DNA of 64,000 nucleotides from Cycloclasticus pugetii PS-1 (lineage in GTDB: Bacteria; Pseudomonadota; Gammaproteobacteria; Methylococcales; Cycloclasticaceae). The stretch spans positions 1,488,001-1,552,000 of the forward strand of contig NZ_ARVU01000001.1 in assembly GCF_000384415.1 (NCBI RefSeq), read 5' to 3'. The position numbers and the translations under genes were made by a program. The notes beneath the pieces were generated by a model that saw nothing but the letters and a program-made list of their open reading frames with translations, was not told the origin of the DNA and did not search any database. Positions 3,337 to 14,672 of the stretch are shown here, piece by piece (position 1 is the stretch's first letter; the number at the start of each line of letters is the position of its first letter).

Positions 3337-3379
3337 GAAGTACGTCAATACCATCACCAAGACGATGTTGACGTACTTC
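3337..3379 (+). terminator. 12-bp perfect hairpin after lpd
   Basis: A perfect inverted repeat has GAAGTACGTCAA (3337-3348) as its left arm and TTGACGTACTTC (3368-3379) as its right arm around a 19-base loop. It begins 25 bases after the lpd stop. There is no T-run behind it, so it is not a classical Rho-independent terminator; it could be a 3'-end-stabilising hairpin, a weak terminator or a protein-binding dyad. Confidence 0.45.
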
Positions 3380-3527: not shown

Positions 3528-3556
3528 ATTAACTTAATATAATAATTTAAGTTAAT
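3528..3556 (+). promoter_or_regulatory. Perfect 10-bp inverted repeat around a TATAAT box (candidate promoter/operator)
   Basis: ATTAACTTAA (3528-3537) and TTAAGTTAAT (3547-3556) form a perfect dyad whose nine-base centre contains TATAAT (3538-3543). A further half-site-like ACTAACTTA lies at 3558-3566. It is about 50 bases before the start of the acetolactate-synthase-like gene, in the longest gene-free gap of this part. No strong -35 box is seen at 17 bases, as would suit an activator-dependent or repressed promoter. Dyad and -10 match are direct observations; the regulatory role is inferred. Confidence 0.5.
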
Positions 3557-3605
3557 CTACTAACTTATTGATTATTAGGTATTTAAAAATCCAATGGAGA
3601 ACCGG

Positions 3606-5435
3606 ATGAGTTTAACCCTAACACAAGCAGTCCCGCAAAATGAAATCGCCACATGCGAGCTTCTCCTCGATTATTTAGAAAAAATTGGTGTTGAATATGT
3701 TTTCGGCATTCCAGGTGGTGCTATCGAACCACTCTACAATGCCTTAGCTAAAAGTGAGAAACGTGGCGGCATAAAAGCTATCACCGCTAGACATGAAACA
3801 GGGGCTGTTTTTATGGCCGACGCCTATGCAAGAAATACCGGGAAACTAGGTGTCTGCTGCTCCACTACCGGCCCAGGTGCAACAAATATGATCACCGGTG
3901 TTGCTTCCTCATTTGAAAATAACACCCCGTTACTTGTTATCACTCCTCAAGCATCTCAGGATAAAGTAGGTAAAAAGGCTCTCCAAGAATCTGGAGATAC
4001 AGGGGTTAATATCCCTGGAATGTTTCAGTTTTTTACCAAATACAATAGTTATGTAACGCATGTGGGGCAATTTGAGCATAAACTTGTATCTGCTATCATG
4101 TCTGCTTTTAGTATGCCAGGAGGCCCAACACACCTGAACATTCCAACTGATGTATTAAAAAGCCATATCCCACCTAAACAACATCCAGTCAATATAAATA
4201 ATTTATTAAGCCGCCCCTACTTAAAAGACGAAAAAGCTATACAAGCTCTTATAAGTGAACTTCGTCATTCAAAAAAGACTATTTTCGTAATCGGTGCAGG
4301 CGCTAAAGGTTGTAGCCGATTAATAACCGATTGCATTAATGATTTAGGTATTGAATTTGTTGCTACACCTGATGGTAAAAGTTTTATTAATCCTTACCAC
4401 CCATCCTATAAAGGTGTTATTGGTTTTGCCGGACATAAGAGTGCGAGTAAAGCACTTCAATCCGATGCCGTTGACTCTATTGTCCTTATTGGTTCTTCTT
4501 TAGGTGAGTTTAACAGTAATGCATGGGACCAATTATCTTTATTGAACAACAAATTAATACATATTGATAATAACGAAGATAACCTAACAAGATCTTCTAT
4601 GGCGAAGCTCCAAGTAGGCGGTCACATTCCAACTATCTTAGAAGCCATTTTAGAAAATAATAGAACGCAAATTAAAAATAAAGAAAAAATCTCAACCAAG
4701 TCCGTTATAGATAAAACTCAATTATTCGCTGATATATGTATAGATAATCAAAAAAAACTCCATTTTGAGCTTGATGACTCTACAAAAACCAAAGATCGGT
4801 CTAGCCCATTAAAACCACAGTTTTTAATGGCGCAGCTAACTCAACTTTTCCCACCTAATACCCGTTACTTAGCTGATAATGGCAATAATATGGCTTGGGC
4901 AGTTCATTATTTAAACCCCTATGACAGGCGCTTTAGTGGCCGCCGATCTTCACAAAGAGACCAAAAAGATAGACGAGCATTTAGCGCCGGGTTATTACAA
5001 ATTAACACTGAGTTTTGTTCAATGGGTTGGTCAGTTGGAAGCGCCATCGGTACTGCACTAGCGCACCCAAATGATCCCGTTCTTTGTATTGTTGGTGACG
5101 GCAGCTTCCTCATGTCAGGTAACGAAATAACAGTCGCATTACAAGAAAAGTTAAATATTATTTTCCTTGTGATGAACGATCAACATCTTGGTATGGTTAA
5201 ACATGGTCAACGATTAAATAAATCAGCCGATATAGCCAACACATTACCGAATATTAGTTATGCTTTAATGGCATCAGCCATGGGCATCATGAGTCATACC
5301 ATTGAAACAGCCGATGACTTACTGCAGCTCGATACCAATAAAATTTGTGAACGTAAGGGGCCCACTCTACTCGACGTTAGAATAGATGCAGAAGAAGTTC
5401 CCCCTATTGCTACGCGCTTAAAAGGGATGAAGTAA
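3606..5435 (+). CDS. Acetolactate-synthase-like thiamine-diphosphate enzyme
   Basis: Member of the acetohydroxyacid synthase/pyruvate oxidase superfamily of ThDP carboligases and decarboxylases, 609 residues from this start. Visible features: FGIPGGAIEPLYNAL, RHETGAVFMADAYA carrying the ThDP-activating glutamate (E64), TTGPGATNMITGVA, and the metal/ThDP motif GDGSFL (497-502) closing with ND at 524-525. An Arg-rich stretch RRFSGRRSSQRDQKDRR near residue 440 looks unusual. The ATG at 3606 is preferred over that at 3594 because GGAGA lies five bases before it. No ilvN-type regulatory subunit gene follows; instead two citrate-synthase-fold genes are coupled to it (2-base gap, then 4-base overlap), so biosynthetic acetolactate formation is not the obvious role. 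The true substrate cannot be told from sequence. Confidence 0.85.
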   Translation: MSLTLTQAVPQNEIATCELLLDYLEKIGVEYVFGIPGGAIEPLYNALAKSEKRGGIKAITARHETGAVFMADAYARNTGKLGVCCSTTGPGATNMITGVASSFENNTPLLVITPQASQDKVGKKALQESGDTGVNIPGMFQFFTKYNSYVTHVGQFEHKLVSAIMSAFSMPGGPTHLNIPTDVLKSHIPPKQHPVNINNLLSRPYLKDEKAIQALISELRHSKKTIFVIGAGAKGCSRLITDCINDLGIEFVATPDGKSFINPYHPSYKGVIGFAGHKSASKALQSDAVDSIVLIGSSLGEFNSNAWDQLSLLNNKLIHIDNNEDNLTRSSMAKLQVGGHIPTILEAILENNRTQIKNKEKISTKSVIDKTQLFADICIDNQKKLHFELDDSTKTKDRSSPLKPQFLMAQLTQLFPPNTRYLADNGNNMAWAVHYLNPYDRRFSGRRSSQRDQKDRRAFSAGLLQINTEFCSMGWSVGSAIGTALAHPNDPVLCIVGDGSFLMSGNEITVALQEKLNIIFLVMNDQHLGMVKHGQRLNKSADIANTLPNISYALMASAMGIMSHTIETADDLLQLDTNKICERKGPTLLDVRIDAEEVPPIATRLKGMK

Positions 5436-5437
5436 CA

Positions 5438-6265
5438 ATGGAACAAGAAAAAATAAATACTAAAATTTGGTTTGAAGAAGAAGAACCTGACAACCCATTT
5501 GCCGCCAAAACATCTTACTGTTCTGGTTACGATGTTTATGGTGATTTATTGGGTAAAATCTCTTGGCCCGAATACATTTTTTTATTATTTAAGCTTGAAA
5601 AACCCTTACCCTGGCATTCTAAACTATTAGAGGCTATCGCTATTGCTATTGCCAATCCGGGCCCTCGTGATTTAGGTGTCCGTGCTGCTATGAATGGTGG
5701 TGTAGGCGGTTCAACCGCCGCTTCCTGTTTAATGGCCGCCTTAGCACCCAGTGCTGGCAAAAATGGAGGGGCAAGGGAAGTTTATCAAGTGATGCGCTTA
5801 TGGCAACAGTGTGAATTTGAATTAACTCAATGGAAACAAAGTTTATCCAACTATCAAGATGAAGAAGAAATTGAAGTTTGGCCAGCTAGTGAACACACCC
5901 CTGGCTTTGACCCGTATGGGGCAAGTTGTGCCACCCCCGTTTTACAAACATTGGATCACTTAACGTCCATATACTCTGACGGAGCTCTCAGCTATTTATC
6001 AGCTAATCGACAGATATTTGAAAAAGTTGCTGATGCGCCATTAGGCATGACTGGTGTCATAGCCGCAGCCTTCACCGACTTAGGTTTTACGGATGAACAA
6101 GCAGAAATGCTATACCTTTTACTTCGCCTTCCGGGCGCTGCAGCACACTCACTTGAACAAAAAAAGCTTGGCTGGCGTAAATACCCATTTTTTGGAAATG
6201 GCTTAACCCTCACCAACGACCCTGGCCCATCAAACTCTAACCAAACATCCCAAGACGAACTATGA
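5438..6265 (+). CDS. Citrate-synthase-fold / citryl-CoA lyase-like protein, first of pair
   Basis: A 275-residue protein of the citrate synthase superfamily, about the size of stand-alone citryl-CoA lyase domains and much shorter than true citrate synthases (about 430). By-eye alignment to citrate synthase places the CoA/His loop at GKNGGAREV, where the usual HGGA histidine is asparagine (N109). SEHTPGFDP may hold the second histidine (H153), VADAPLG the catalytic aspartate (D199), and LPGAAAHSLEQ (231-241) matches the conserved C-terminal helix. It starts two bases after the ThDP-enzyme stop and overlaps the next gene by four bases (ATGA), so the three are translationally coupled. Family placement is good; activity and substrate are unknown. 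Confidence 0.78.
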   Translation: MEQEKINTKIWFEEEEPDNPFAAKTSYCSGYDVYGDLLGKISWPEYIFLLFKLEKPLPWHSKLLEAIAIAIANPGPRDLGVRAAMNGGVGGSTAASCLMAALAPSAGKNGGAREVYQVMRLWQQCEFELTQWKQSLSNYQDEEEIEVWPASEHTPGFDPYGASCATPVLQTLDHLTSIYSDGALSYLSANRQIFEKVADAPLGMTGVIAAAFTDLGFTDEQAEMLYLLLRLPGAAAHSLEQKKLGWRKYPFFGNGLTLTNDPGPSNSNQTSQDEL

Positions 6266-7062
6266 AAGGTCCGATAACACTTAAGCAGGCTGAAGATAAT
6301 TGGCAAACCAACATGGGCGTTTTCGTCAATGGAGAACGTGCTATTTATCGTGGAAAAGATATATTTAACGAATTGGCCGATATTAATTGGTTTAAGTTAA
6401 TTATGTTTGGTATCACTGGACGTGAATTTAGCAACCAACAAATAAAACTTTTTGAAGCCATTCAGGTAATCACCGTTAGTTACCCTGAGCCAAGGCTATG
6501 GAATAACCGCATCGCCGCCTTATCAGGTAGCGCAAGATCTACGGGTATATTAGGCTTATCAGCGGCCACTGCATGTTCAGAAGCAAAAATTTTTGGAAAC
6601 CAAGCAAATATTATCGCCATTGACTTTATTAAACGTGCAAAAAAAGCTATTGAGGCAGGTGCAGATTTATCTGAATTTGTTATTAGTGAGCTTAAAAATA
6701 AACGAGCTATTGGTGGTTATGGTCGCCCCTTAGTTGATTCTGATGAACGAATCGCACCTTTATTAAATAGAGCTAAAGAGCTTGAACTTGCTAATGGCCC
6801 ACATGTCAAGTTGGCCCTAGACATAGGTAATATTTTATCTAAAAGTCGTTATCGGCAAATTTTAAATGCAAGCGGTTTAGCTGCAGCATTAATGGCTGAC
6901 CAAAACTTTGGGCATCGCGAATACTATTACGCAACCATGCTAGCTTTTTCTGCCGGTATTATACCCTGCTATATTGATGCAGCGAATCACAAAGAAGGCA
7001 GTTTCTTCCCGCTAAGCTGTCAACGACTAAACTACAAAGGACATGACGTAAGAAGCTGGTAA
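6262..7062 (+). CDS. Degenerate citrate-synthase-fold protein, second of pair
   Basis: A 266-residue protein weakly resembling its upstream neighbour and citryl-CoA lyases. An N-terminal VFVNGERAIYRGKDIF segment resembles the start of citrate-synthase-type lyases. Where catalytic residues are expected the sequence differs: FGNQAN (111-116) in place of the HGGAN histidine loop, GGYGRPL (R155) in place of GFGHR, and NASG (202-205) where NVDF carries aspartate. These are alignments by eye. All three changes together suggest a non-catalytic or specialised subunit, perhaps forming a heteromer with the preceding protein, as the coupled 4-base overlap would allow. The gap to the next gene is 50 bases. 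No function is assigned. Confidence 0.68.
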   Translation: MKGPITLKQAEDNWQTNMGVFVNGERAIYRGKDIFNELADINWFKLIMFGITGREFSNQQIKLFEAIQVITVSYPEPRLWNNRIAALSGSARSTGILGLSAATACSEAKIFGNQANIIAIDFIKRAKKAIEAGADLSEFVISELKNKRAIGGYGRPLVDSDERIAPLLNRAKELELANGPHVKLALDIGNILSKSRYRQILNASGLAAALMADQNFGHREYYYATMLAFSAGIIPCYIDAANHKEGSFFPLSCQRLNYKGHDVRSW

Positions 7063-7112: not shown

Positions 7113-9188
7113 ATGAAAAAAACACATGCTTGGTTACTATTAACCTTCCTCTCCACCTTTGGAACTAATTCATACGCATTTGATGAGAGCGAGAATGCCT
7201 TAGCAGACATATATGGCGATGAGGATTATATATATATAGCCACAGGGCGAAAACAAACAGTATCTCAAGCACCTGCTGTTGCAAGCACAATTACTGCTAA
7301 AACAATTCGTCAAATCGGCGCGCGTGATATTGATGAAGTATTAGAAACAATACCAGGCTTGCATGTCTCTTATACTGCCGGTGGATACAACCCCATCTAT
7401 CAAATACGAGGCATTACATCAAACTTTAACTCCCAAGTTTTAGTGCTTATCAACGGGATCCCTATCACCAATATATTTACTGGGAATCGCTCTCAAGGGT
7501 GGGGAGGTATGCCGGTTGAAAATATATCTCGTATCGAAGTTATCAGGGGACCAGGTTCTGCTATTTATGGGGCTGACGCGTTTGCTGGAACTATAAATAT
7601 CATTACTAAAAATTCCACCGAAATAGATGGGCTAGAAATAGGCGCGTCCGCAGGAAGCTTTGATGAATATCGAGGTTGGATACAATACGGTGGTTCGAAA
7701 GCCGGTTGGAATACGGCTTTCTCTGCTCAAGTGATGGATACACACGGTCAACACGAAAAAGTAGGAGCAGACATCCAAACAACCCTTGATACCATTACTG
7801 GAACCTCTGCCTCTTTAGCACCAGGTAATATTAGCTTGGGACGCCGATCATTAGACACCCGACTTGATCTCTCTAAGGCTAATTGGCAATTACGCTTAGG
7901 GTATCAAGCTAGAAGAGACGGCCAGGTAGGTGCAGGGCTTTTTCAGGCACTTGACCCCGTTGGTGAAGCTGATACCGATCGTTATAATGCGGATATCACA
8001 TACAAAAACACTAATTTATCTGAGAATTGGGACTTTAAAGCTCAATATAGTTTTTTTAACAGCATCACTCAATCCAACTTAGTATTGCTCCCACCGGGTG
8101 CTAATACAACAGGAATTCCAGCCCATACTTTTCCAAATGGTGTTCTGGGTAAGCCCAATATATATGAGCGCCATAACCGGGTTGATTTATCTAGCTTTTA
8201 TACTGGCTTAAAAAAACATGATATTCGTCTCGGTGTCGGCTTTCACCATCAAGACCAATATAAAATTGAAGAAAAGAAAAACTATTTACCGTTTGGCCCA
8301 GCCTTAATCCCTCTTGGAGGACTTGTTGACGTCAGTGACACGATCCCTTTCAACCAAGAAAAAACACGCAAAATTTATTATAGTTTTGTACAAGATGCAT
8401 GGGACTTTGCCCCTGATTGGACTTTAACTGCTGGTCTACGTTACGACCATTACTCGGATTTTGGCGACACACTTAACCCACGACTGGCCTTAGTCTGGCA
8501 AACCAGTTATCGCTTAACCAGTAAGCTTTTATACGGGCGCTCTTTTCGTGCCCCTTCATTTGTTGAACAGTTCAATATTAATAACCCTGTTGCTTTGGGC
8601 AACCCAGATCTAGACCCTGAGGTTATTGACACCTATGAGATTGCCTTTGATTATAATACATCCAACAACCTAAAACTTAGTTTGAATTTATTCTACTATC
8701 AAATGGATGATATTATTCGTTTCGCCCCTACAACAGCTAGCAATACTGGCAAACAAACAGGGCACGGCTTAGAAATGGAAGCAAACTGGAATGTAACAAA
8801 CAAGCTTTCCATCTATGGTAATTATGCCTACCAGTCTTCTGAGGATAAAGACACTAATAGCGATGCCGCAGATGCCCCTCAACAACAACTTTATCTGAGA
8901 GCCAATTATGACATATCGCCCATGTGGTCAATCAACTCTCAACTAAACCATGTCCGTGATAGGCAACGTGCTGCAAGCGATTTACGCCCAGACATAAGCA
9001 ATTACACCACCATTGATTTAACTCTACGTGCAAAAGGACTTAACCCTGACATAGAACTTGCTTTATCGGCTAGAAATTTACTCGATGAAACAGTCAAAGA
9101 GCCATCCGAAGCACCTGGAAGCATCCCCGATGACCTGCCTCTTGCTGGCAGAGCTTTTTTTGTTGAACTGAGAAAATCTTTTCATTAA
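7113..9188 (+). CDS. TonB-dependent outer-membrane receptor
   Basis: Outer-membrane beta-barrel that would take up a ligand using TonB energy. The 691-residue protein has a signal peptide (about 1-22, cleavage after NSYA), a TonB-box-like DYIYIATGRKQ near residue 40, a plug domain (RQIGARDIDEVLETIPGLHV and the RIEVIRGPGSAIYGADAFAG hallmark), then a barrel of amphipathic strands ending in a C-terminal aromatic/hydrophobic strand (FFVELRKSFH). The layout recalls BtuB/CirA-type receptors. No cobalamin riboswitch or Fur box is visible in the short upstream gap, and the start is preceded by six C bases rather than a purine-rich ribosome site. It is followed by a substrate-binding protein and a sensor kinase, pointing to ligand sensing as much as uptake. 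The ligand is unknown. Confidence 0.9.
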   Translation: MKKTHAWLLLTFLSTFGTNSYAFDESENALADIYGDEDYIYIATGRKQTVSQAPAVASTITAKTIRQIGARDIDEVLETIPGLHVSYTAGGYNPIYQIRGITSNFNSQVLVLINGIPITNIFTGNRSQGWGGMPVENISRIEVIRGPGSAIYGADAFAGTINIITKNSTEIDGLEIGASAGSFDEYRGWIQYGGSKAGWNTAFSAQVMDTHGQHEKVGADIQTTLDTITGTSASLAPGNISLGRRSLDTRLDLSKANWQLRLGYQARRDGQVGAGLFQALDPVGEADTDRYNADITYKNTNLSENWDFKAQYSFFNSITQSNLVLLPPGANTTGIPAHTFPNGVLGKPNIYERHNRVDLSSFYTGLKKHDIRLGVGFHHQDQYKIEEKKNYLPFGPALIPLGGLVDVSDTIPFNQEKTRKIYYSFVQDAWDFAPDWTLTAGLRYDHYSDFGDTLNPRLALVWQTSYRLTSKLLYGRSFRAPSFVEQFNINNPVALGNPDLDPEVIDTYEIAFDYNTSNNLKLSLNLFYYQMDDIIRFAPTTASNTGKQTGHGLEMEANWNVTNKLSIYGNYAYQSSEDKDTNSDAADAPQQQLYLRANYDISPMWSINSQLNHVRDRQRAASDLRPDISNYTTIDLTLRAKGLNPDIELALSARNLLDETVKEPSEAPGSIPDDLPLAGRAFFVELRKSFH

Positions 9189-9244: not shown

Positions 9245-10216
9245 ATGATATATTTTAAGATATTTTATAGTACCGCTCTACTTGCCATACTTTTTTATAC
9301 AACGACAATACTTGCTGATGACACATTAGAAGCTAGCGCTACCTTCAACATCACTGTTGTTTACCCTGATGTTAGAAAACCTTATAGTACACTTTTTGAA
9401 TCTATTATTAGTGGCATTAAGGAACAGCCTAAGCTAAACGTACAAACACAATTAATGGATAACTCAATGCTGGAGACAGATATCCTAAATTCTCTTAGAC
9501 AAGAGAGCCCAGACGCTGTTATTTTATTAGGTGGCGGCAGGCGAGCACTACAAGAAAAAATAAACTCTCTTTATAAAACAACCTATGGTGCCTTATTTCT
9601 TTCTGACCATGATATCAACAATGGCCGTTATGGCATTTCTATGACCCCAGACCCCACTCTTCTCTTTTCTGAATTAAAAAAAATACAACCAACAGTCAAG
9701 GAAATTCATGTTGTTTTTGATCCAAAAACTAATGGTTGGTTAGTTCAAAGAGCCATTGAAAACACCCCGAACACAGGAATAACCGTCATTCCATACGAAG
9801 CCTCAAGTTTGCAACAAGCGGCCCTAATTTATAAAGAGATTGCTCGCAATAATGACCATACTAACAGTGCTTTATGGCTTATACACCATGATCCCACCTT
9901 TGATAGTAAAAGCTTATTACCACGAATTTTATCGGACGCTTGGAAATATCAACAAGTCGTCATATCCACTAACCCCTCACATGTACGAAGAGGGGCTTTA
10001 TTATCACTGCTACCAGATAGTCAACAAATAGGAAGAGATTTAGCCACCACCACAGTTCGATTATTAAGTGGGCAAAAAGCATCGCCCGTTACGCCAATGC
10101 AGTCATCCCTAGTTGTTGCGAACCTTAGAACAGCCAAACATCTTCCAAACACCATTCGTTTAGATCAAAAAACCAATTTTGCTTTGACCTACCCAAGAGC
10201 CTCAGCAAATGATTAA
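9245..10216 (+). CDS. Periplasmic ABC-type substrate-binding-like protein
   Basis: Secreted two-lobed binding protein of the uncharacterised ABC_sub_bind type (similar in outline to COG2984/TrpX proteins). It has a signal peptide (hydrophobic 5-23, cleavage near ILADD), the first-lobe pattern ITVVYPDVRKPYSTLFESI, a PDAVILLGGG strand-loop and a second-lobe IHVVFDPKTNGW stretch. No ABC permease or ATPase gene is adjacent; instead its end overlaps the start of the large sensor kinase by eight bases. That coupling suggests it presents a ligand to the kinase's periplasmic domain rather than to a transporter. The ribosome site is weak (CAGGG about 13 bases from the ATG). 323 residues, normal for the family. 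Confidence 0.8.
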   Translation: MIYFKIFYSTALLAILFYTTTILADDTLEASATFNITVVYPDVRKPYSTLFESIISGIKEQPKLNVQTQLMDNSMLETDILNSLRQESPDAVILLGGGRRALQEKINSLYKTTYGALFLSDHDINNGRYGISMTPDPTLLFSELKKIQPTVKEIHVVFDPKTNGWLVQRAIENTPNTGITVIPYEASSLQQAALIYKEIARNNDHTNSALWLIHHDPTFDSKSLLPRILSDAWKYQQVVISTNPSHVRRGALLSLLPDSQQIGRDLATTTVRLLSGQKASPVTPMQSSLVVANLRTAKHLPNTIRLDQKTNFALTYPRASAND

Positions 10217-13200
10217 AACGTTTTACAAATTTTTAACACAACGTAGTTTTAAAAACCTCCTAACGACAACCTACTTTATTGGCATCATACTTTTAATATC
10301 CATTGCCACTTTAATCACCTCCAATTTATCGTCTAAAAGTGTTCATGACAGCCTTAATCAAACTGGACTCCAGCTTGTTGAGTCATTAGGAAATAACAGT
10401 CGCATCGCCCTTCTCTATCTCAGTCAGGATGAAGCTGAATTAGTCGTAGAATCAATCCTCTCCTTCCCGGATGTTAAAGCAGCAGGGATCTATGATGACA
10501 AAATGCAAGTAATCTACCAAAGTAGTGACCTGTTAAGTGCAGGCACTAACACCTTACCAGTAGAATCAACGTCTTTAGATTATGAAAATGAGCATGAGTG
10601 GAGCTATAGCTCACCTGTTTATAGTACGCTCGATGAAGAAACATTACTTTATTCAGATAGTGAATTTAAGCCAGAACTTCTAGGTTACGTGCGCCTAACG
10701 GTTGGAAAAAATGTACTCAGGTCGCTTAAAAGTGATTTTTATAAGTACAACTTAATGGTGATAGGTAGCTTAGCCCTATTATTATTGTGGGCTCTTTTAT
10801 TCATCACAAAACGTATTAGCAAACCAATCGATAATTTAGCTAAAAATATGCTAAATGCTGCTCAAGGCAAGCGAACTGAACGCAAAGGTATCGGTAGCAC
10901 AGAAGACATTATGCGCATGGAACAAGCCTTTACAGACATGATGCATATTTTGGAAAATCGTGAACAAGAACTCATTACTACGCGTGACATCGCTATTGAG
11001 GCAGCTAAAGTCAAAAGCGAGTTTGCCGCCAATGTCAGTCATGAACTGAGAACGCCTTTAAATGGTATTTCAGGCATGCTAGAACTATTATCTGATATGG
11101 ACCTTAACGTCCAACAGAAAGAATACCTAAAGGTTGCCTCTAGCAGTGCAAATTCATTACTAAGCCTTATCGATGATGTTTTAGATTTTTCCAAATATAA
11201 CCAACAAGATGTCGACTTACACGAAGAATCGTTTAATTTACGTAACACGTTGGAAAACTCCATTACCCTACTCAGCGCTCAAACTCAGCACAAAAACATT
11301 TCTATCGCCTATTTTTTAGATGCCGATGTACCTCTTCATCTAATTGCTGATGAGTTGAGGCTCCAACAAATCATACAAAATTTACTCGGTAACGCCATTA
11401 AATTCACTCCGGCTGGTGAGGTGAGCATTTCTATCTCAACCTCAGCATTGAATGAAAACAACCTAACCTTATTATTTGAAGTAAAAGACACCGGCGTTGG
11501 TATCCCTCAAGAAGTTCAAAATAAAATTTTCACTGCCTTCTCTCAAGCCGATAACTCTACTACTCGAGAATATGGTGGAACAGGCTTAGGGCTTGCCATC
11601 AGCCGACAGCTAGTCACTATTTTTGGCGGTGAAATGGGCGTAAAAAGCAAAGTTGGTAAAGGCAGCACTTTTTGGTTTACTGCTAATTTTACTGTCGACA
11701 TGCAAGCCGAAGCCTTTGAACTATCAAGCACTCAAATATCACCCACTCAACCTAATGTTTTAACGGTTAGCGATGATGATTTTTCTCACCGTTTTATCGT
11801 TCAACAATTTCAAGCATCACCTTTTCATGCCGACCATGTCACTGATGGGATGACAGCTATAAAGAAACTGCGTCAACACGAAACTTTATCAAAGCCTTAC
11901 GATTATATTTTAATTGATAATCTTCGTTCAAACATTAGCCAAACAGCCTTAATTCGTATGATTAACGCTGACCATACTTTAGCCAACACAAAGATAATTG
12001 TCCTCATCGCTAACCAGTCAAGTCAGCTTAATGCAACAAAAGAGCTCAACGTATTTGGGCATATTACTAAACCAATTAAACAATCTGATTTATTATTGCA
12101 TTTACACTCAACCGTTGAATCAAAACCAACATTATTACCTGAACAGCAAGCACTCAAAGAACCCCTACCAGACTATTCATTTAAGAAAATTCTTGTTGTT
12201 GAAGACAATAAAGCGAATCAACTGGTTGCTAAAGCCATGCTAGAACGCTTCCACTGTAATGTAACCTTGGCTAACGATGGTCTTGAGGCATTAGAGCTTT
12301 TTTCCAGCCAGTCCTTTGACCTTATTTTGATGGACTGTCAAATGCCAGAGATGGATGGTTATGAAGCAACATTCCAAATACGTGAACTTGAAACTGTCGA
12401 CAAACACACACCTATCGTTGCACTAACAGCCAACAAACAAAACGCTGACCGAGAACAATGTATCGCGGCGGGAATGGATGACTTCATGTCAAAACCATTA
12501 ACACTGCCCACATTAAAAACCACCTTACAGAAATGGGTTACGCAAGAAGCTGCACAAACCAACCCTATCGAGGACAGTGAAGACAAACCTCTCATACAAA
12601 CAGTCTTGGATGAAAAAACATATTTAAAACGGCAACAAAACCTTGGAGCTGAGTTCAAAACTACTTTACAGTCTTTCCTTGAGCAAACCCCTCTCAGCTT
12701 ATCCCGCTTAACAGATAGTGTCTCAAAGCTCGATAGGATTGCTATAAAACGTCTTGCAGAATCTGTTAAAAATAGCGCTTTCGATATTGCTGCACTACGC
12801 CTTTCACAAGCCTGCAAGAAATTAGAAAGTGCTTGTGATGATGGAGAAGCTAAATTTCTAGGCCTTCAACATAAAATAATTCTATTTGAGGCTGAGTTAG
12901 TTATCAAAGAAGTCTCTATAAGACTAAACAACAGTGAGACTGAAAACCCAGTCGTCAGTCAACACCTTAACCCTGCTAGGGTTTTATTAATAAACGCTGA
13001 CAAAAGAGACCGCTTTTTAATCAAAAATGCCTTGGAAGATAGTGGCCACAATGTAGATGAAGTAATTAACAATTATCAGGGGATGCTTTATTGCGAACGA
13101 AATAAACCTGATATCGTTATTTTAAATCATGATTTATCTCATGATGACATTGAGCTTGTCAAAACGTGTGAGGTTTTTAATAGCAGCGGTATTCCTTTCA

Positions 13201-14672
13201 CTATCACCTCAAACTTAGAGAGTGAAACCTCGATTAATAATGCATTTAAAATGGGAGCACTCGATTATTTTTCAACACCATTAAACTTGTCTCTTTTTAT
13301 TCATCGGATTAATCGAATATTAGCCACCAAACAAACTGAAAAACAAATATTTAACTTAGCGCATAAAGATCATTTAACAGGCCTAATGAACAGGTCTTTA
13401 TTTACTAAGAAAGTTTCTGAGCTGATCAACAAACACGAGCGCGAGCATAAAATAATGGCCGTTATTTTCCTCGATTTAGACCGTTTCAAATTAGTCAATG
13501 ATTCCTATGGCCATGAAGCCGGCGATTTACTGCTTAAAATTGTTGCTGAGCGCCTCTCAAGAAGTGTTAGAGATGTCGATATCATTTCAAGGTTTGGTGG
13601 TGATGAATTTGTTGTCGCTTTAACCGATGTTAAATCACATCAAATAATCGAAACCCTAGCACGTAAAATACAAAACAACCTCTCAAGGCCCTTTGTTTTC
13701 TTAGAGAAAGAAATGCACGTTAGCGCCAGTCTTGGCATCAGTGTCTATCCAAGTAGCGGCAAGACGGTCAGTAACCTGATAAAGAACGCCGATATTGCCA
13801 TGTATTTATCCAAGCAATCAAAAAGCCCTTACGTCTTCTTTGACGATACGATGTCCGAGAGCATTAACCAACGTTTAGTCATAGAAAATGAACTACGTAA
13901 TGTTATTTTACGCGATGAATTAAAGGTTTTTTATCAGCCACAATTTAGCGCCACAAACGGCGAGCTTATCGGTATGGAAGCCCTCGTCCGCTGGCAACAC
14001 CCTAAAAAAGGCCTAATTCCACCGAATAACTTTATCGGTTTAGCTGAAGAAACAGGGCAGATTCATATGATTGGCGAGTGGGTTATGGAAACAGCCTGCA
14101 AAACGTTAAAAAACTGGATTGACCGAGGGGCAAAACCAATTAGAGTTGCCGTTAATTTATCTACACTTCAGCTAGAAGATGACGGCATCGTAAACAAAAT
14201 ATCGTCTATTCTAGAAACCACTCGGCTTCCACATAAGCTTCTTGAATTAGAAATAACTGAAAGCTCCGTTATGAATAACGAACAACTGATGATTGAAAAG
14301 CTAAACACATTAAAAGAGTTAGGTATCAAACTTGCCATTGATGACTTTGGAACGGGCTACTCTTCTTTAAGTTACTTAAAACGTTTGCCAATTAATTTAT
14401 TAAAAATTGACCGCTCATTTGTTAATAACTGCCTGCTTAACTCAATAGATTCTGACATTATACGGACGATTATTATTTTGGCTCACAGTATGGGTATCGA
14501 TGTCATTGCAGAGGGAGTTGAAACAGAACAGCAAAGCACGCTTCTAAAAAGCCTCAATTGTGATTTCGTACAAGGCTATTTATTTGGCAAGCCAATGCCT
14601 AGTGAAGAGTTCGAAAAGCTTATTTTCAACAACGTAAGAGATAACGTATACCCGATCACTTTGTTACAATAA
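10209..14672 (+). CDS. Hybrid sensor histidine kinase with receiver, GGDEF and EAL domains
   Basis: Inner-membrane signalling protein of 1487 residues. Order: membrane helix (about 18-40), periplasmic sensor (about 41-170), second helix (about 175-197), HAMP, HisKA with phospho-accepting H278 in VSHELRTPLNG, HATPase (NAIKFTP, DTGVGIP, GTGLGLAIS), receiver 1 (ILIDNL), receiver 2 with intact D709 in LMDCQMPEMDG, an HPt-like helix bundle, receiver 3, GGDEF (1130-1134) and EAL (E1257) with DDFGTGYSSL and EGVET motifs. Receiver 3 has asparagine (N973) at the phospho-aspartate position and the HPt-like stretch LAESVKNSA has glutamate (E851) where histidine is expected, so both look inactive. GGDEF and EAL appear intact, hence possible synthesis and breakdown of cyclic-di-GMP. 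Translationally coupled to the binding protein; sensor ligand unknown. Confidence 0.93.
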   Translation: MIKTFYKFLTQRSFKNLLTTTYFIGIILLISIATLITSNLSSKSVHDSLNQTGLQLVESLGNNSRIALLYLSQDEAELVVESILSFPDVKAAGIYDDKMQVIYQSSDLLSAGTNTLPVESTSLDYENEHEWSYSSPVYSTLDEETLLYSDSEFKPELLGYVRLTVGKNVLRSLKSDFYKYNLMVIGSLALLLLWALLFITKRISKPIDNLAKNMLNAAQGKRTERKGIGSTEDIMRMEQAFTDMMHILENREQELITTRDIAIEAAKVKSEFAANVSHELRTPLNGISGMLELLSDMDLNVQQKEYLKVASSSANSLLSLIDDVLDFSKYNQQDVDLHEESFNLRNTLENSITLLSAQTQHKNISIAYFLDADVPLHLIADELRLQQIIQNLLGNAIKFTPAGEVSISISTSALNENNLTLLFEVKDTGVGIPQEVQNKIFTAFSQADNSTTREYGGTGLGLAISRQLVTIFGGEMGVKSKVGKGSTFWFTANFTVDMQAEAFELSSTQISPTQPNVLTVSDDDFSHRFIVQQFQASPFHADHVTDGMTAIKKLRQHETLSKPYDYILIDNLRSNISQTALIRMINADHTLANTKIIVLIANQSSQLNATKELNVFGHITKPIKQSDLLLHLHSTVESKPTLLPEQQALKEPLPDYSFKKILVVEDNKANQLVAKAMLERFHCNVTLANDGLEALELFSSQSFDLILMDCQMPEMDGYEATFQIRELETVDKHTPIVALTANKQNADREQCIAAGMDDFMSKPLTLPTLKTTLQKWVTQEAAQTNPIEDSEDKPLIQTVLDEKTYLKRQQNLGAEFKTTLQSFLEQTPLSLSRLTDSVSKLDRIAIKRLAESVKNSAFDIAALRLSQACKKLESACDDGEAKFLGLQHKIILFEAELVIKEVSIRLNNSETENPVVSQHLNPARVLLINADKRDRFLIKNALEDSGHNVDEVINNYQGMLYCERNKPDIVILNHDLSHDDIELVKTCEVFNSSGIPFTITSNLESETSINNAFKMGALDYFSTPLNLSLFIHRINRILATKQTEKQIFNLAHKDHLTGLMNRSLFTKKVSELINKHEREHKIMAVIFLDLDRFKLVNDSYGHEAGDLLLKIVAERLSRSVRDVDIISRFGGDEFVVALTDVKSHQIIETLARKIQNNLSRPFVFLEKEMHVSASLGISVYPSSGKTVSNLIKNADIAMYLSKQSKSPYVFFDDTMSESINQRLVIENELRNVILRDELKVFYQPQFSATNGELIGMEALVRWQHPKKGLIPPNNFIGLAEETGQIHMIGEWVMETACKTLKNWIDRGAKPIRVAVNLSTLQLEDDGIVNKISSILETTRLPHKLLELEITESSVMNNEQLMIEKLNTLKELGIKLAIDDFGTGYSSLSYLKRLPINLLKIDRSFVNNCLLNSIDSDIIRTIIILAHSMGIDVIAEGVETEQQSTLLKSLNCDFVQGYLFGKPMPSEEFEKLIFNNVRDNVYPITLLQ

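Follow-up and report, generated by a model that had tools for sequence, protein, structure and literature searches.

A conserved thiamine-diphosphate enzyme gene and two half-size citrate-synthase-fold genes linked to receptor and sensor genes in Cycloclasticus pugetii PS-1

Gene organization of the locus

In a stretch of 64,000 nucleotides from Cycloclasticus pugetii PS-1 (contig NZ_ARVU01000001.1, positions 1,488,001 to 1,552,000), hereafter called the window, we analyzed three tightly spaced genes that encode a thiamine-diphosphate (ThDP) enzyme and two small proteins with a citrate-synthase (CS) fold, here named A and B. A first-pass annotation, made from the sequence alone, had described this spacing, and the open reading frames (3594-5435, 5438-6265 and 6262-7062) bear it out: A begins 2 bases behind the ThDP gene, and B overlaps A by 4 bases. 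That annotation did not include two further features of the locus, namely that the operon-like string runs on from the three enzyme genes through genes for a receptor, a binding protein and a kinase up to position 14672, and that both CS-fold proteins are devoid of the usual catalytic residues. The start of the kinase gene overlaps the binding-protein gene by 8 bases, and no permease-like gene adjoins the binding-protein gene in the window. The genes and features are listed here in window coordinates.

3594-5435, plus strand: ThDP carboligase/decarboxylase-like enzyme of the acetolactate-synthase superfamily, 613 amino acids (aa) (Pfam TPP_enzyme N, M and C)
5438-6265, plus strand: CS-fold protein A, half-size and citryl-coenzyme A (CoA)-lyase-like, 275 aa (AlphaFold model and structure match)
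6262-7062, plus strand: CS-fold protein B, 266 aa, a paralogue of A in which other residues are lost and kept (AlphaFold model and structure match)
7113-9188, plus strand: TonB-dependent outer-membrane receptor, 691 aa (Pfam TonB_dep_Rec_b-barrel and Plug)
9245-10216, plus strand: periplasmic binding protein of the ABC_sub_bind type (PF04392, E 6.6e-11)
10209-14672, plus strand: membrane hybrid histidine kinase, 1487 aa (Pfam HisKA, HATPase_c, Response_reg, GGDEF and EAL)
3528-3556: perfect 10-base inverted repeat with a 9-base spacer, a possible operator 5' of the ThDP gene
3337-3379, plus strand: 19-base hairpin, 84% complementary, 3' of lpd

Conservation and linkage of the genes

A scan of named genomes returned 235 relatives. 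The best 80 of these were picked by closeness to A, so that more distant A/B pairs are under-represented, and include loci labelled Cycloclasticus, Porticoccus/SAR92, Marinobacter, Hahella, Collimonas, Gallionella, Dechloromonas, Geobacter and Pelotalea. Some loci represent the same genome twice (for example L039/L084 and L034/L057), and 30 of the 80 (A detected by profile) or 31 of the 80 (A detected by blastp) were excluded for lack of full flanks. All 49 full-flank loci carry A, B and the ThDP gene; the TonB receptor was found in 48, a histidine-kinase or GGDEF/EAL homologue in 46 and the binding protein in 38. In 20 control stretches (19.5 kb each, at hand-picked positions in ten carrier genomes) the counts for A, B, ThDP enzyme, receptor and binding protein were 0 each, and a sensor was found in 2. 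The 49 loci are not independent: clustered by A at 70% identity, they reduce to 18 groups, 17 with the receptor and 15 with a sensor. The ThDP gene lies on the same strand as A in 48/50 cases, B in 50/50 and the receptor gene in 38/49. Conservation of the three-gene unit in genera so far apart is more than would be expected by chance, and the view that these genes form a unit outside the standard branched-chain and tricarboxylic acid (TCA) cycle pathways is upheld.

The first-pass annotation had proposed co-occurrence of the three genes in other genomes as a check, and the homologues do occur together. In the class scan (369 genomes) A was present in 42 genomes and B in 44, and every genome with A also contained B (42/42); in G553 both profiles match one single gene, and its exclusion leaves 41/41. 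Two genomes (G252 and G378) have B without A at the threshold used, and in G396 the two genes are on different contigs. The order scan detected A in 25 of 201 genomes and 9 of 48 genera, with at least nine same-genus genomes without A. B was found in 11 of the 398 genomes of a phylum sample, one match being weak and eight coming from other classes. Of 27 divergent or other-class loci, several of which come from stretches that end at contig ends, 19 showed the ThDP gene and 19 the receptor; the same test gave a sensor in 17. In L046 (G003:C1:3765500-3785000) the match to B is split, with a short first part behind A beside a transposase-like gene and the remainder about 0.5 Mb away at G003:C1:3257642-3258289, and in the divergent locus L164 two TonB-receptor and two ThDP matches surround one A/B pair.

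The window receptor shares 45-54% identity with the receptors found at the corresponding position in 12 loci outside the genus, out of 14 compared (the remaining two show none); within its own genome, the next receptor matches are 29% identical over 189 residues and 34% identical over 178. Judged by these identities, the receptor is co-inherited with the enzyme genes. Of the NCBIfam models, TonB-hemin fits it best (173 bits; cut-off 317), and among solved chains it is nearest to the colicin I, ferric enterobactin and B12 receptors. The binding protein has an N-terminal hydrophobic segment (6-24) and is the only match of its kind in its own genome. In the kinase, hydrophobic segments at 16-42 and 179-203 flank a presumed periplasmic domain, and this kinase/GGDEF/EAL protein is presumed to be the output of the module.

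The type of sensor varies between clades, but some sensor usually stays. Besides the pair of binding protein and hybrid kinase, a second variant was identified by Pfam in Marinobacter (L125), consisting of a YfiR/HmsC-like protein, a CHASE8 kinase and a GGDEF/EAL response regulator. In our clustering of neighbouring genes (121 loci, L178 left out), the YfiR-like cluster occurs in 11 loci. The third variant, from another class, combines a 1727-aa protein with Pkinase, AAA, GAF and histidine-kinase domains with a LuxR-type regulator (Pfam, L209; cluster in L207-L210). In receptor-less loci the kinases of L181, L209 and L210, and one of the two in L179, have no membrane segment; soluble kinases would be expected there if the receptor served periplasmic sensing only.

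Accessory genes are found at some loci. A short-chain dehydrogenase/reductase (SDR) gene lies between the ThDP gene and A in L042-L047, L094, L099 and L103, and O-methyltransferase (PF00891) and asparagine-synthase (PF00733) genes occur at some loci. The PF00733 gene adjoins the end of B in L169; an asparagine-synthetase-like gene follows B immediately in this and one other divergent genome, both from the same genus (L168, in its last 0.7 kb, and L169:10798-12711).

The upstream neighbours of the three enzyme genes are sucA-sucB-lpd-like genes. The hairpin at 3337-3379, 3' of lpd, probably marks the end of this 2-oxoglutarate dehydrogenase operon, so that the module is probably a separate unit. 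The inverted repeat at 3528-3556 has one exact match in the window against 0 in 100 shuffles. It is kept only partly in five same-genus loci, and because the perfect repeat is not conserved as such in these loci we dropped it as a conserved operator motif.

The ThDP enzyme and the CS-fold proteins

The ThDP protein contains the three TPP-enzyme domains (Pfam, E 1e-38, 8e-22 and 1.7e-27), the catalytic Glu and the GDG...N motif of its superfamily, and its closest solved chains are BbmA (8x3x, E 7e-82) and CsmA (8x3z, E 5e-70). No function for BbmA or CsmA was found in the open-access literature searched, and neither is mentioned in the accessible part of PMC12247030. The domains, the catalytic Glu and the ThDP motif are common to the window protein, acetolactate synthase, BbmA and CsmA. 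With the genome's own acetolactate synthase as reference, the catalytic Glu is kept in 87/87 aligned letters, and the Gln of AFQE is kept in 90/90 members of the ThDP family. The acceptor side differs from that of acetolactate synthase: the Trp of GMVxQWQ, which shapes the acceptor pocket of that enzyme, is replaced by Gly in all 89 relatives with a letter there, so that the acceptor is probably bulkier. Most members also replace the Lys of CVKHN, with Arg in 57 of 72 main-group sequences. Against the best equivalog models the protein scores 284 bits (cut-off 509) and 270 bits (cut-off 538). The first-pass annotation had described an acetolactate-synthase-like protein without an ilvN partner; the TPP domains agree with this, and no ilvN adjoins the gene among the open reading frames of the window. 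The protein is not a biosynthetic acetolactate synthase with respect to small subunit, acceptor-side Trp or curated score. The other acetolactate-synthase-like large subunit of the genome is 29% identical to the ThDP protein and is followed by small-subunit-like and ketol-acid-reductoisomerase-like genes (named by eye). An Arg-rich insertion, DRRFSGRRSSQRDQKDRR, precedes the cofactor-binding part in the window protein and some relatives; it varies in length and is missing in others.

Neither A nor B has a Pfam match at E up to 1. The nearest NCBIfam models are those of citryl-CoA lyase (PRK06224): A scores 54.4 bits (cut-off 212) and B 45.9 bits (cut-off 245), so that A attains about a quarter and B about a fifth of the curated score. 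AlphaFold models, based on alignments of 49 sequences for A (47/77 and two further loci) and 52/77 for B, have a mean confidence (pLDDT) of 89.8 and 91.5, respectively. The model of A superimposes on citryl-CoA lyase 6hxp with Z 20.3 and a root-mean-square deviation (rmsd) of 3.4 over 225 residues, and on 6hxo with Z 20.4; for B and 6hxp the values are Z 23.3 and rmsd 3.7 over 244 residues. Full-size citrate synthases match the two models less well (Z 13-17). Judged by these models, both A and B have the half-size citrate-synthase fold, with citryl-CoA lyase and ATP citrate lyase modules as top matches, in agreement with the tandem of half-size CS-fold proteins described before. The two are also paralogues of one another (hhalign probability 97.5%, E 6e-12).

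The residues at the active site were compared in an alignment of 78 A and 77 B main-group sequences, 15 A and 16 B divergent sequences and five ordinary citryl-CoA lyases. The comparison excludes divergent sequences scoring 90 or below against the profile, as well as L176, L178, L182 and L203-L210; the 93 A and 93 B sequences are all distinct, but related. The five reference lyases all keep HGG, GHR, DPR and NID, together with the H and E/Q of AHxxEQ. From citrate-synthase work, we take the GHR His and NID Asp positions to be catalytic, and assign the binding of substrate carboxylates to two Arg residues, that of DPR and the one preceding AHxxEQ. The NID Asp is lost in 93/93 sequences of A and in 93/93 of B. 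In B, the GHR His is replaced by Arg in 93/93, the HGG His is lost in 93/93, the DPR motif reads D-E-R in 93/93, the Asn of NID is kept in 92/93, and the His of AHxxEQ has become Cys in 89/93. In A, the GHR His is lost in 93/93, this column being alignment-uncertain because the loop is shortened in A; 75 of 78 main-group sequences are without the HGG His, but 10 of 15 divergent ones have a His in that column, while the His and Glu of AHxxE are kept in 93/93. One putative carboxylate-binding Arg is kept by A (78/78 main-group and 3/15 divergent sequences) and the other by B (93/93). That different positions are kept in the two paralogues would fit a heteromer with a re-tooled site.

The first-pass annotation had asked whether A and B belong to a known citryl-CoA lyase system. 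They share the fold of such a lyase but are not ordinary citryl-CoA lyases, since their scores fall far under the cut-offs and catalytic motif residues are lost. The citryl-CoA lyase of Hydrogenobacter thermophilus (6hxp), like the ATP citrate lyase module, has the same half-size fold over nearly the full length; that lyase is one polypeptide, whereas A and B are two paralogues with replaced His and Asp positions in another genome context. PRK06224-type lyases (Diaphorobacter, Azospirillum, Bradyrhizobium, Ruegeria and Azoarcus plasmids), the nearest sequence family, are 24-29% identical to A in all 19 plasmid matches. The five that we examined are single genes and keep HGG, GHR and NID (5/5), unlike A and B, and a CoA transferase gene adjoins four of them, the Bradyrhizobium gene being the exception. 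On the plasmid of Azoarcus sp. KH32C (L132, NC_020548.1, 602006-608671) the citryl-CoA lyase gene lies between a CoA transferase gene and that of a different ThDP enzyme, near shikimate-type genes, and represents another pairing of the ThDP and citryl-CoA-lyase families. The C. pugetii genome has two full-size citrate-synthase matches. It also has a third, single half-size citryl-CoA-lyase-like gene (L191, C1:1229816-1230400, minus strand, 259 aa) whose neighbours are an acyl-CoA dehydrogenase-like gene and two MaoC-like ones (named by eye); its NID motif reads NAT, and the catalytic Asp may be missing there too.

A proposed function and its alternatives

As regards the first-pass interpretation, the conserved unit has stood, the receptor and sensor part had been missed, and the suggestion that A and B carry out acyl-CoA plus 2-oxoacid chemistry has become doubtful as worded because the His and Asp needed for it are gone from both proteins. 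With the receptor and sensor genes, a role in making and sensing a metabolite becomes more likely than one in central metabolism. In our estimate the chances are about even that the locus is a self-contained module which makes and senses a small molecule, probably an α-hydroxy-carbonyl compound. The ThDP enzyme would decarboxylate a 2-oxo acid, probably pyruvate, and attach the two-carbon unit to a bulky acceptor with a carbonyl group; the product would be an α-hydroxy-ketone or an α-hydroxy-β-keto acid. A and B would pair as a citryl-CoA-lyase-like heteromer and, without the usual His/Asp apparatus, would carry out a different reaction on the ThDP product, or activate and hold a substrate. 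The gene context suggests that the product would leave the cell and re-enter the periplasm through its own TonB receptor, where the binding protein would bind it and the histidine kinase/GGDEF/EAL protein would change its activity in response; in this way cells would adjust cyclic di-GMP (c-di-GMP) or gene expression. The tailoring genes at some loci (SDR, O-methyltransferase and asparagine synthase) point to synthesis rather than breakdown. The α-hydroxyketone synthase of the Cqs/Lqs/Jqs type is a single pyridoxal-phosphate enzyme, in contrast to the ThDP enzyme and two CS-fold proteins found here together with a TonB receptor and a periplasmic binding protein. The arrangement is similar in that the genes for CqsA, LqsA and JqsA adjoin those of their own sensor kinases CqsS, LqsS and JqsS, according to the accessible part of PMC3566124. 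Linkage of the synthase genes to a sensor, as in such synthase-receptor systems, was found here in 46/49 loci and in 2/20 controls.

Several observations weigh against this reading. That the binding-protein and kinase genes are linked is in itself no proof that this product is what they read, and activity, product, export and sensing are all proposals; inspection by eye of the 30 neighbour clusters with the widest distribution showed no exporter. With the CVKHN Lys mostly lost, the ThDP reaction may differ from the proposed one. By the test used, 8 of the 27 divergent or other-class loci showed no ThDP gene, 8 no receptor and 10 no sensor, three of the last (L181, L203 and L209) carrying kinases by Pfam. 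L086, labelled Planctomycetota and with full flanks, has the three enzyme genes only, and the full-flank loci L074 and L102 have no sensor homologue. The link between the absence of a receptor and a soluble sensor fits loosely, as it concerns few loci and is not clean: the L208 kinase has two weak hydrophobic segments and the second L179 kinase two clear ones. Tailoring genes are a minority: the SDR-like cluster occurs in 18/121 loci, not always inside the operon, the O-methyltransferase in 5 loci (two of them one genome) and the asparagine-synthase-like gene in 2.

The main rival is a metallophore locus, in which ThDP enzyme, A and B make an α-hydroxy-carboxylate chelator of iron, copper or another metal, the receptor takes the complex back and the sensor reports metal status; we regard this as somewhat unlikely. 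Metal chelates are the commonest cargo of TonB receptors, which speaks for a metallophore and against the make-and-sense proposal. The TonB-hemin model and solved chains nearest to the receptor, and the many carrier genera that we take to be iron or hydrocarbon oxidisers, also speak for a metallophore. A dedicated TonB receptor, present in 48/49 full-flank loci, 17/18 groups and 19/27 divergent loci, is also what siderophore clusters combine with their enzymes. The loci differ from such clusters in that most have a kinase/c-di-GMP-type sensor and that no gene for a non-ribosomal peptide synthetase (NRPS) or an NRPS-independent siderophore synthetase (NIS) was recognised by eye in the widespread neighbour clusters, with no family search across all. 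Fur boxes are not enriched either: the best match averages 11.5 of 19 bases in 87 ThDP upstream regions against 11.3 in shuffled sequences, and 11.3 against 11.2 in 87 receptor upstream regions, a comparison that had no positive control and covers Fur only among the metal regulators.

A catabolic locus, whose receptor imports a compound that the binding protein senses and that the ThDP enzyme, A and B degrade, is in our view unlikely. Lyases occur in both enzyme families, the host genus is a hydrocarbon degrader, and the ordinary citryl-CoA lyase of Azoarcus KH32C has a CoA transferase on one side and a ThDP enzyme on the other; however, CoA transferase, CoA ligase and β-oxidation genes are outside the conserved six genes, the accessory methyltransferase and asparagine-synthase genes suit synthesis, and A and B are without the lyase catalytic residues. 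Far less probable still is that an ordinary citryl-CoA lyase or citrate synthase has been split in two beside a branched-chain acetolactate synthase. The closest fold and sequence family are indeed those of citryl-CoA lyase, but the Asp and second His positions are replaced in 93/93 sequences of both A and B, the scores are far under the curated cut-offs, and the genome holds another acetolactate synthase, accompanied by a small-subunit-like gene, besides two full-size citrate-synthase matches. The same genome copies and missing residues led us to rule out a branched-chain or TCA role as well as a canonical citryl-CoA lyase system.

Returning to the make-and-sense module, a more far-reaching version, which we put forward tentatively, is that it represents a new class of bacterial signalling, in which the ThDP enzyme and an A/B heteromer would make a signal that passes through the TonB receptor to a periplasmic sensor and on to c-di-GMP. 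As part of this same tentative proposal, A/B would be a CS-fold catalyst without the classical His/Asp pair, with catalysis possibly via the Cys of B (89/93) and the R-P and D-E-R residues, which are invariant. In the open-access literature searched we found no description of the module. About one genome in nine carries the A/B pair in the class sample (41/369), yet neither protein matches a Pfam family. If the make-and-sense proposal is true, the module would stand for a widespread metabolite that is new to description, taken up and read out by dedicated proteins, and for a CS-fold enzyme pair with new chemistry.

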